Virus record (IMG/VR): IMGVR_UViG_3300044858_003438
Coordinates: 1 to 42,958 of that record
Reading direction: 5' to 3' (one strand)
Origin: a virus
DNA: 42,958 bases
Positions 7,579-42,958 of the stretch are shown in pieces. The notes under the pieces were generated by a model. It made no database searches and was not told where the DNA came from. It worked only from the letters and a program-made list of their open reading frames with translations. Position 1 is the first letter of the stretch. Each line of letters opens with the position of its first letter. Both the position numbers and the translations under genes were made by a program.

Positions 7579-7649
7579 TGTTTAGATAAATTTTGTTTAA
7601 GCTCCGCTTCTAACTGCACTAAATACTCAGCGCAATTAAACTTGGTATT

Positions 7650-7790
7650 TTAAGTTACTATCCTTTCCATCTTCTTAAACGCTCCCGCGCTAACCAATGA
7701 ATCGTAAACTTCAGATGGAGACAGGTTGCCATAACCTTCGAAGTATTGTAAGAAATGGTCTTTGTTGTTCTCCCAGAATTTAGCTGTCAT
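7650..7790 (-). CDS. Hypothetical protein, 46 residues
   Basis: Short open frame (MTAKFWENNKDHFLQYFEGY...) with an excellent ribosome site, AGGAGGAGAA, just before the ATG. After its TAA the same frame stays open for 29 more codons (to about 7561) without a start codon, so either a second short protein was lost or the stop codon is a recent change. Confidence 0.65.
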   Translation of the reverse strand: MTAKFWENNKDHFLQYFEGYGNLSPSEVYDSLVSAGAFKKMERIVT

Positions 7791-41358: not shown

Positions 41359-41390
41359 GGTTAAACTTTTTGTTTTTAAAATTTTAAAAA

Positions 41391-41536
41391 GCGATACCGG
41401 CAAAGGACTTACACCTTTGCACAACCATTAATCCCTTACATAGTCCACGAAGCACCCCTTTTTAAGATTCTCTCCGGTTAGCTCTATGCAGCCGCGTCTT
41501 TTCCGATGCACCAGAATAATTCCGCCACGGTATCGC
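41391..41536 (-). ncRNA. Structured RNA closed by a 9-base-pair stem and U-run
   Basis: On the minus strand GCGATACCG (41528-41536) pairs with CGGTATCGC (41391-41399), enclosing 128 bases and followed by TTTTT. Next to the closing stem is a 7-pair hairpin GCAAAGG/CCTTTGC with loop TGTAAGT (41400-41420), like a T arm. After the 5' strand comes GTGGCGGAATT, similar to the D arm of bacterial tRNA-Leu. The element is too long for a normal tRNA (146 bases), and no CCA follows. It resembles a tRNA-derived structured RNA with an intrinsic terminator-like end. Confidence 0.5.
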
Positions 41537-41557
41537 CATTTAAAATTTCACGATGTT

Positions 41558-41633
41558 TGGTCGGGCGATAGGATTTGCACCTATTCCATTGGGAGCGACC
41601 CAATACTCATGCTCTACTTACACCACTGCCCGA
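41558..41633 (-). ncRNA. tRNA-like cloverleaf, degenerate
   Basis: 76 bases on the minus strand. Acceptor arm TCGGGCA/CGCCCGA (one mismatch) followed by CCA, T stem ATAGG/CCTAT with loop TGCAAAT, and a strong anticodon-like stem ATTGG(G)/(C)CCAAT with loop containing TCGCT. The D region has GTAGAGCA but pairs poorly. Deviations: G instead of U55 in the T loop, pyrimidine at position 37, no proper discriminator. If read as a tRNA the anticodon would be CGC (Ala), but function as a decoder is doubtful. Confidence 0.5.
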
Positions 41634-41638
41634 TGTTT

Positions 41639-41766
41639 GCCTTTTTTACAGAAAGGCTAAACTGGTTGTTTTACCCAGAGTTAAACTAAACGCTATTACT
41701 TAGACCCCCTTTCGAGCTTCTAAAACAAAGAACTCAATCTTTGGCAGCGTTGTCAGGATTCGAACC
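41639..41766 (-). ncRNA. Structured region with junction and T-arm-like element
   Basis: Minus-strand folding elements: GGTTCGAATCC with 5-base stems having one G-G mismatch (41753-41769), a perfect AACGCT/AGCGTT stem (41746-41751 with 41689-41694) enclosing two hairpins (CAAAGA/TCTTTG at 41726-41743; TTAGA/TCTAA at 41700-41723), then a bulged AAC-TGG/CCA-GTT hairpin (41660-41682) and GCCTTT/AAAGGC (41639-41657). ACAACGCTGCCA looks like a tRNA 3' end, yet no matching 5' half is found upstream. The gene-free interval 41359-41786 is thus filled by structured RNA. Confidence 0.45.
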
Positions 41767-41786
41767 TCACTTCTCCATTCCTTGCA

Positions 41787-42017
41787 CTATCTTTGCCGTG
41801 CTAGCTTTTTATGAACCCTTCTTATTGTCTTAGCAAACTCCTTAGAAAAATTAACTTTAGAATCCCACTGCTTAACTTGTTTTAAGATAAGCTCTAACTC
41901 CTTGGGATAACTCAAAGTAATTCTTTTGTAGTTAATGCCTGTCTTGGGTCTGCCTCTATTTAATTGCATAATTTTATTATTGTCAATAGCTTTTTTTAAA
42001 ATATTTTTATCACGCAA
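41787..42017 (-). CDS. Small basic hypothetical protein, 76 residues
   Basis: Opens MRDKNILKKAIDNNKIMQLN; RGRPKTG after a helix resembles an AT-hook, followed by ITLSYPKELELILKQVKQWDSKVNFSKEFAKTIRRVHKK, a strand plus two helices like a ribbon-helix-helix fold. It may bind DNA as a regulator (inference). The start overlaps the RusA-like gene by 22 bases. The 3' end borders the structured RNA. Its first 29 codons recur at the left edge of the window. Confidence 0.65.
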   Translation of the reverse strand: MRDKNILKKAIDNNKIMQLNRGRPKTGINYKRITLSYPKELELILKQVKQWDSKVNFSKEFAKTIRRVHKKLARQR

Positions 42018-42349
42018 TAATCCGCGTCTTTGAGCTTTGATTTGTGGCTCTCGATGATGATTTTGCCAACAAATTCATGCGTGTCATTTTGTAAAATTCC
42101 GTATTCAACCAAGCAGTCCTCGATCATTTTTGCCATAAAAAAGCAGTTACTGCTATCAAGCGCGCGACCTCCCCAGAAAAAATCAAACTGTAGATTAACT
42201 TTTTCCTTGACAGGTTGCAACCTAGAGAATGGCACTTTGGTCAACCAAAGATAAGAGTCTTTCAGTTTCTTTCTTTTAGTCCAATGAATGCCGGCGTAAA
42301 TCTGATTAGCAGATTGCTTGATGATGTTTTCTAGCTTAATCTCCTGCAT
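41996..42349 (-). CDS. RusA-like Holliday junction resolvase (right copy)
   Basis: Protein identical to the left copy (117 residues) although the DNA differs at several silent positions. Silent-only divergence shows that the gene is under purifying selection in both variants. Catalytic layout as described for the left copy. Confidence 0.68.
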   Translation of the reverse strand: MQEIKLENIIKQSANQIYAGIHWTKRKKLKDSYLWLTKVPFSRLQPVKEKVNLQFDFFWGGRALDSSNCFFMAKMIEDCLVEYGILQNDTHEFVGKIIIESHKSKLKDADYCVIKIF

Positions 42350-42662
42350 ATTCTAATAATTTATTCGTTATCTCAATCAGTCCCTCTTGGTCGATTTTAA
42401 ACTTTTCTTCAAAAGCAATCCTGCCTATCTTATGAAAAGCAAACTCTCCCGTGCGATGATGATTAGAGCAAAGTCCCATCGAAAGTAAGTCGCTAACTTT
42501 CTTACCAAGACCTTTCCCGTGTAAATGATGCGCCTCTGTGCGAGTTGACTGTGTCTCGTTTAGAAAAGTGCATAGGCTACACGGGATATTCTGGATAGCT
42601 GCCATCCTTTTAGGGTCTTTGTAACCGCTACGAAATTTCGGGTCAGGTTTGAGTAAATTCAC
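42336..42662 (-). CDS. Ref/YbcO-like HNH nuclease (right allele)
   Basis: 108 residues from a GTG that overlaps the stop of the 53-residue gene. C28-x-x-C31, EAHHLHGKGLGKKVSDL with H45-H46, GLCSNHH with H68-H69, then FHKIGRIAFEEKF. This is the more canonical family member (GxGxKxSDxxxxxLCxxHHxxxxxxxHxxGxxxFExxF). Shares ends with the left allele but not the centre, so gene conversion or exchange took place inside the gene. Confidence 0.78.
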   Translation of the reverse strand: MNLLKPDPKFRSGYKDPKRMAAIQNIPCSLCTFLNETQSTRTEAHHLHGKGLGKKVSDLLSMGLCSNHHRTGEFAFHKIGRIAFEEKFKIDQEGLIEITNKLLEYAGD

Positions 42663-42820
42663 ACTTTCCTTTCTGTTTTTGCTGGCGGATTAAGCGCGTA
42701 TTCAATAGCGAATAGCAACTCTTTCACGTTTTTGTTTTCATCCATAACTGCTTTTTCCTGGCGGTATTTTGCCACCTCTATTGCGTCATAGATTTTTGTT
42801 ATTGCTTCATTTAGCGTCAT
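42659..42820 (-). CDS. Hypothetical protein, 53 residues (right copy)
   Basis: Near-identical to 949-1110, ending KTERKV. Here its stop TGA overlaps the GTG start of the HNH gene directly, whereas in the left variant it overlaps the start of the small membrane protein. Confidence 0.6.
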   Translation of the reverse strand: MTLNEAITKIYDAIEVAKYRQEKAVMDENKNVKELLFAIEYALNPPAKTERKV

Positions 42821-42958
42821 ATGATTTAATGGTTGCCGGAACGATGTCCGTGATTATTTCTTTTATTGCTTTGGCGTATTGCTGAATTTCTGGTTGAGCG
42901 TGTGGATGAGACCTCAGCTCAATGAATTTAAGTAAATTTCTTAAATCAATCCCCCAGT
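42807..42958 (-). CDS. thyX: thyX, C-terminal part (right edge)
   Basis: The last 49 codons of the flavin-dependent thymidylate synthase, cut by the window edge. Contains the ELRSHPHAQPEIQQYA segment. Differences from the left copy seen in the final codons are silent. Confidence 0.9.
   Translation of the reverse strand, partial: WGIDLRNLLKFIELRSHPHAQPEIQQYAKAIKEIITDIVPATIKSYDAK

Follow-up and report, generated by a model that had tools for sequence, protein, structure and literature searches.

The minus strand of the 42,958-base IMG/VR virus record IMGVR_UViG_3300044858_003438, the whole of which was analysed here (hereafter the window), carries a gene-free interval bounded on one side by a 76-aa ORF (41787-42017), itself preceded by a RusA-like gene, and on the other by a 121-aa ORF, raising the question of what is encoded there. 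The terminase, portal and capsid genes in the window establish that it comes from a tailed phage, and no integrase was noticed among the ORFs read. As the RusA region is found at both ends (1-449 corresponding to 41929-42377, and 949-1248 to 42659-42958, at 98% and 97% identity), the contig probably closes on itself via a variant copy of this region, and the genome is thus probably near complete; the HNH genes of the two copies differ. Neither the neighboring small protein nor RusA, used as queries, had a match in the viral contigs. We rejected the interval as a coding region, as the longest stop-free stretch on its minus strand is only 40 codons. Likewise set aside were an RNA antisense to the phage's own genome (the longest match of 12 nt is under the shuffled mean of 12.8) and an attachment site copied from a host tRNA (no exact match to TTCGAATCCTGACAACGCTGCCA in the genome collection).

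The initial annotation had viewed the interval as a densely structured, tRNA-like region. As a single piece, 41385-41770 folds no better than shuffled sequence (z -0.51), but the description holds for single units, above all for one that we term unit c, which together with its flanks folds better than 200 of 200 shuffles (z -3.14). The same annotation was right that no proper tRNA is present: ARAGORN detects neither a tRNA nor a tmRNA in the interval, and the Rfam covariance models call no ordinary tRNA, with no family attaining its gathering score there.

Unit c (41390-41537, minus strand) is a 148-nt RNA with a tRNA-Leu-type scaffold, a 10-pair acceptor stem and no CCA. Its predicted fold displays, in order, an outer AT-rich helix, the acceptor stem, the D-stem, an insert and the T-arm. 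The 3' strand of the outer helix, UUUAAAAUU (41380-41388), is predicted to pair with 41547-41539, and the equivalent site in the arrays of related phages described below carries AAATATTTAAA/TTTAAATATTT, a change compensatory by inspection. The closing (acceptor) stem joins the 5' strand GGCGATACCG (41528-41537) to its partner at 41399-41390, the 3' strand CGGTATCGCT (41390-41399), which is supported by covariation and by the fold and is followed by UUUU; 9 of its 10 pairs are altered on both sides among relatives. Accordingly, the nine-pair stem with five U that had been noted earlier exists, but it closes unit c, with its 5' strand at 41537-41528, and is not a local terminator hairpin; moreover, the interval given as starting at 41391 has to be extended by one base for unit c and to 41380 for the outer helix. 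The D-arm (41494-41525) has a GCG...CGC stem and an enlarged loop. It is followed by a 73-nt insert or "payload" (41421-41493), recognized by its position, which replaces the anticodon and variable arms, with no anticodon arm with a 7-base loop in unit c; the inserts of other such units are unrelated to it in sequence. The T-arm (41400-41420) combines a 7-bp stem, GCAAAGG/CCTTTGC, with the loop TGTAAGT, having a G at position 55, and recurs in the loci L105, L116, L133 and L134.

These marks define what we here call the F1 family, namely a TGG[CT]GGAAT D-arm, a T-stem of 6-7 bp, a non-TTC T-loop, a closing stem and an insert at the anticodon end, and unit c displays all of them. A covariance model (R1), built from 20 F1 units with that of the window left out, finds unit c with 33.2 bits (E 3e-6), but also scores about 29-48 bits at loci of tRNA-Leu size in one phage and three bacterial genomes, so that its score for unit c speaks of kinship with tRNA-Leu and not of a separation of F1 from it. 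Hence, unit c was assigned to F1 by its structural marks and not by this score. It is a divergent member, with its enlarged D-loop and no close homolog, and had no match in 50,697 phage records.

Ahead of unit c lies the linker AACATCGTGAAATTTTAAATGG (41536-41557, minus strand), the last two bases of which (GG) open unit c. It is preceded by unit b (41558-41632, minus strand), a 75-nt tRNA-like element that corresponds to the cloverleaf with CCA recognized by the initial annotation. Its T-loop is TGCAAAT and its D-loop is devoid of GG; hence, an intact elbow (G18 and G19 with T55 and C56) with a TTC T-loop is found neither here nor in unit c. At the anticodon position it has the hairpin ATTGGGTCGCTCCCAAT, with a 5-pair stem and the loop GTCGCTC, and its hairpin sequence GGGTCGCTCCC is shared with array modules of L102, L106 and L115. 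Unit b scores 17.8 bits against the Rfam tRNA model, for which the cut-off is 29, and is less certain than unit c on account of a mismatch in its acceptor stem, its weak fold when taken alone (z -1.10) and the lack of a close homolog. Further upstream is the previously noted GCC hairpin (hairpin H, TTAGCCTTTCTGTAAAAAAGGCAAA; 41636-41660, minus strand), which is also present in 19 viral contigs and in Rickettsiales MAG contigs; it was found in 3 of 263 Rickettsiales genomes, in which a reversed control pattern had no hits. The remaining stretch (41661-41770, minus strand) comprises a T-arm-like hairpin (41769-41753), which with that of unit c (41420-41400) makes up the two hairpins of this type reported earlier, followed by CAACGCTGCCA and a part with weak resemblance to the module found ahead of hairpin H in relatives. 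Local similarity of this stretch to L115 exceeds 500 of 500 shuffles, and to L116 and L103 about 98% of them, while that to L105 is not significant. The letters of a proposed AACGCT/AGCGTT junction are present at about 41751/41692, but the junction itself is unsupported by relatives; a circularly permuted tRNA in this first part (CCA before AGCGTT) was rejected, as no relative supports it.

A terminase search for relatives of the phage recovered 80 loci. The closest large record is G001; at the equivalent site, which lies upstream of its terminase on the opposite strand, it has an ordinary tRNA with the anticodon UAA, a distorted tRNA-like unit of 97 nt and further sequence without clear genes. 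This ordinary tRNA (L094, 4482-4554) spans only about 76 nt and has no long variable arm; bacterial tRNA-Leu usually has one. In the contigs with hairpin H, the linker CCA-AAATCGTRAATATTTAAATGG connects true tRNAs and structured units into long arrays; a variant of this linker lies at 41557-41536 in the window. The array units with F1 marks (L103, L105, L109, L116, L119, L128, L131, L133, L134 and L138) belong to phages of aquatic Rickettsiales, and both the linker and the hairpin of the window are common to these arrays. When compared with Rfam, the ordinary tRNAs of the arrays match and no other family does; the array of L107 had no match in the 50,697 phage records. The arrays of Rickettsiales phages at L127 2040-3500, L133 100-1300, L116 3900-4760 and L138 4100-5500 have several other structured modules without an Rfam match, namely a GGTGGCAC...GTGCCACT unit, a module with a GGTAAAGAWGA hairpin, GGAAAGAC hairpins and tRNA-Ser-like framed units. 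Loci recovered by the pattern GGTAAAGAWGARNGCRRRAAT alone (L139-L143) were left out, given that it produced a false match inside a coding region of L143. That locus also has an RT-18 RNA (7629-7703, 45 bits), with a reverse transcriptase and a variable tail gene next to it, and is apparently a diversity-generating element unrelated to F1.

Unit c and the array F1 units have in common a TGTGGYGGAAT D-arm and a non-TTC T-loop; their T-stems comprise 6-7 pairs and their closing stems 10-14. Across unit c and nine array relatives, two-sided changes affect 13 of the 16 pairs in the acceptor and T-stems, a count equaled in none of 500 shuffles, and the alignment of 20 F1 units also yields 13 of 16. 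These counts were made on 20 well-behaved units or on the conserved ends only; MAFFT misplaced the variable regions of full F1 units. Additionally, the D-stem shifts from GCG/CGC to GTG/CAC in 3 of 12 units (L105, L133 and L134). As the sorting of units demanded paired stems, percentages of pairing on the sorted alignments are partly so by construction; units were therefore also picked by their D-arm and TGCAAAT sequence alone (n=51, several of them close relatives). Among these, the acceptor pairs completely (7/7) in 40 of 51, whereas exchanging partners gave 7.7 on average and at most 15; the T-stem pairs completely (6/6) in 39 of 51, the corresponding values being 14.2 and 22. Thus, the F1 scaffold is held by compensatory changes, and the pair conservation in relatives that the initial annotation had named as a check is borne out. 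Its suggestion of either a novel phage RNA or tRNA genes strung together and remodeled to serve another task is well supported by these covarying stems, by the arrays that mix true tRNAs with remodeled units and by the absence of a matching Rfam family.

A scan of viral contigs with the D-arm alone, the family counts from which are lower bounds, separated at least 45 ordinary tRNA-Leu (T-loop TTC, T-stem of 5 pairs in 44, mostly 79-90 nt) from at least 41 F1 units (T-stem of 6-7 pairs in all, length 91-211); L226, with its T-loop TTTGAAT, was left out of both classes. F1 is therefore a class separate from ordinary phage tRNA-Leu, with a T-stem of 6-7 rather than 5 bp and a T-loop that usually has G55. 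For comparison, TTCRA T-loops are found in 374 of the 394 distinct tRNAs called by ARAGORN in the collected loci. A few phage tRNAs called by ARAGORN (Trp, Met, Gln) have a G at position 55 of the T-loop as in F1, in a normal cloverleaf.

F1 extends well beyond the Rickettsiales phages. A BLAST search with the L155 unit matched 31 phage records, nearly all from Lactobacillus plantarum, and one with the L189 unit matched 35 Enterococcus phage records; the L158 and L176 units added phages of Lacticaseibacillus and Weissella. Among the matches listed, no annotated gene lies under an F1 match. In LP65, ATCC 8014-B2, P1, phiSHEF16 and phage 113, F1 is located in tRNA islands, whereas in temperate phages it occupies the late-operon leader, with the gene of a late regulator (ArpU or RinA) on one side and the terminase region on the other. 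In phage 113, a group I intron endonuclease is encoded upstream of F1, and a tmRNA is annotated there as well. In Schiekvirus phages of Enterococcus (L280, L281, L282, before 1201), F1 starts about 2 nt behind tRNA- or tmRNA-like 3' ends that differ between the phages (AGCTCCATA, AGTTCCATA, TACTCCATA), suggesting variation of the upstream unit as well. F1 has no match among the families of Rfam 15, and no description of it was found in the open PMC library; it may be listed unnamed elsewhere, e.g. in subscription papers or in the supplements of large RNA surveys such as PMC8040213.

Comparison of individual phages shows how the two parts of F1 vary. Between phiSHEF16 and EFP01 the scaffold arms are each 96% identical and the 3' flank 98%, while the inserts are 56% identical, which is within the shuffled range of 43-59%. 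Between phiSHEF16 and phage 113, the insert is fully shared and the 5' flank differs; finally, phiFL2A has the F1 scaffold without an insert. The insert is thus exchangeable, or even absent, while the tRNA frame stays.

Several known RNAs invite comparison. Bacterial tRNA-Leu (RF00005) shares with F1 a frequent location in phage tRNA islands, the acceptor stem, the TGGCGGAAT...AGACGC D-arm and the T-arm, but F1 lacks the anticodon and variable arms and has a long insert, a T-stem of 6-7 bp and a non-TTC T-loop; unit c further differs in its longer closing stem and lack of CCA. The bacterial Y RNA YrlA (RF02553) likewise mimics a tRNA without decoding and joins D- and T-arms to a further part that varies; in YrlA, the order of the arms is permuted. 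We rejected an identity with YrlA, as its model matches neither the window nor the F1 relatives. Its T-loop is a substrate of TruB (PMC8394870), whereas F1 has mostly G55. The Ro/TROVE domain (PF05731) is absent from the 17 records and genomes searched, with a Deinobacterium control positive, although the virus records among them may be incomplete. ROOL (RF03087) and GOLLD (RF02032) are also RNAs of phages or prophages near tRNA islands but are much larger. The earlier view that the interval stands apart from both is upheld, and identity with either was rejected: neither model matches the window or the relatives, ROOL appearing solely as a neighbor in L176, where F1 begins 13 nt downstream of it. 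The tmRNA resembles F1 in that its ends are tRNA-like and a large body replaces the anticodon arm, but the D-arm of F1 is of the leucine and not the alanine type and no tag reading frame was recognized; with no ARAGORN call or Rfam match for tmRNA in the window, this identity was rejected too.

Unit c thus retains the acceptor stem, D-arm and T-arm of tRNA-Leu as a closed scaffold in which the anticodon and variable arms have been replaced. In Escherichia coli, leucine identity depends on A73 and the elbow contacts G18:U55 and G19-C56, with the anticodon and variable arm not being needed (PMC9976931). Most F1 units have G55, and the D-loop GG is also gone in most of the Rickettsiales forms; hence, their charging with an amino acid is unlikely. 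We give about an even chance to unit c being a non-decoding scaffold RNA derived from tRNA-Leu that carries a variable payload. It would be transcribed within a longer RNA together with tRNAs, and its likeness to tRNAs may cause it to be cut out or protected; the missing anticodon and altered elbow would then keep it out of translation, leaving the insert as the putative working end. The rapid exchange of inserts suggests an arms race, the partner in which is most likely to be host functions acting on tRNAs or host defence. Given that phage tRNAs can counter tRNA-targeting defences elsewhere, as two reports (PMC10264068, PMC11555353) describe, counter-defence is by analogy a reasonable candidate role for F1; however, placement in the late operon fits an early counter-defence poorly and argues for late functions as well.

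The same reports lend some credence to an RNA that acts solely by its tRNA-like exterior, binding and occupying a host factor that interacts with tRNAs, such as a tRNA nuclease or RNase P, with the insert as a mere spacer. A tRNA shape without decoding in the company of real tRNAs accords with such a decoy, but we deem it unlikely, as the anticodon loop needed by anticodon nucleases is absent and the wholesale exchange of long inserts would be left unexplained. We likewise regard it as improbable that these units are cis-acting leaders or spacers, i.e. stabilizers or processing signals for the genes behind them: while an ATG often follows hairpin H at a distance of about 20-30 nt and F1 is found in the late-operon leader of temperate phages, units also occur between tRNA genes, and many follow one another with no gene between them. 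Phage-borne tRNA genes decaying without function would account for broken T-loops, lost anticodon arms and the acceptor mismatch of unit b; yet this is very unlikely in light of the two-sided changes that keep the acceptor and T-stems, the T-stem lengthened alike in all of the at least 41 F1 units, the altered T-loop conserved across phages of different hosts, and the two discrete classes, which decay does not give. A tRNA-Leu from which the insert is spliced to restore a working tRNA, as the leucine-type D-arm and the base following the acceptor (in units from Firmicutes phages mostly A, like the leucine discriminator) might evoke, is scarcely credible, since the insert is not bordered by the remains of an anticodon stem, splicing would leave both G55 and the 6-7-bp T-stem in place and Rfam finds no intron there.

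Extending the scaffold-and-payload reading to the family, we tentatively propose, as a possibility short of an even chance, that F1 is a phage RNA cassette system in which a stripped tRNA-Leu elbow would serve as a vector matured by host tRNA-processing enzymes, and deliver a different functional RNA in each of many tailed phages of Firmicutes and Rickettsiales. While tRNA mimics as such are known, this analysis came across no known family that keeps the tRNA-Leu elbow while swapping the content of the anticodon end. F1 is present, unannotated, in genetically usable phages, such as phiSHEF16, EFP01 and phiFL2A of Enterococcus and ATCC 8014-B2, Sha1 and Lb338-1 of Lactobacillus. It also serves as a warning that a part of phage tRNA islands is missed by tRNA callers. 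It often shares its location with phage tRNAs and with ornate RNAs like ROOL, and offers a direct way to ask what the non-decoding RNAs of phage tRNA islands do.
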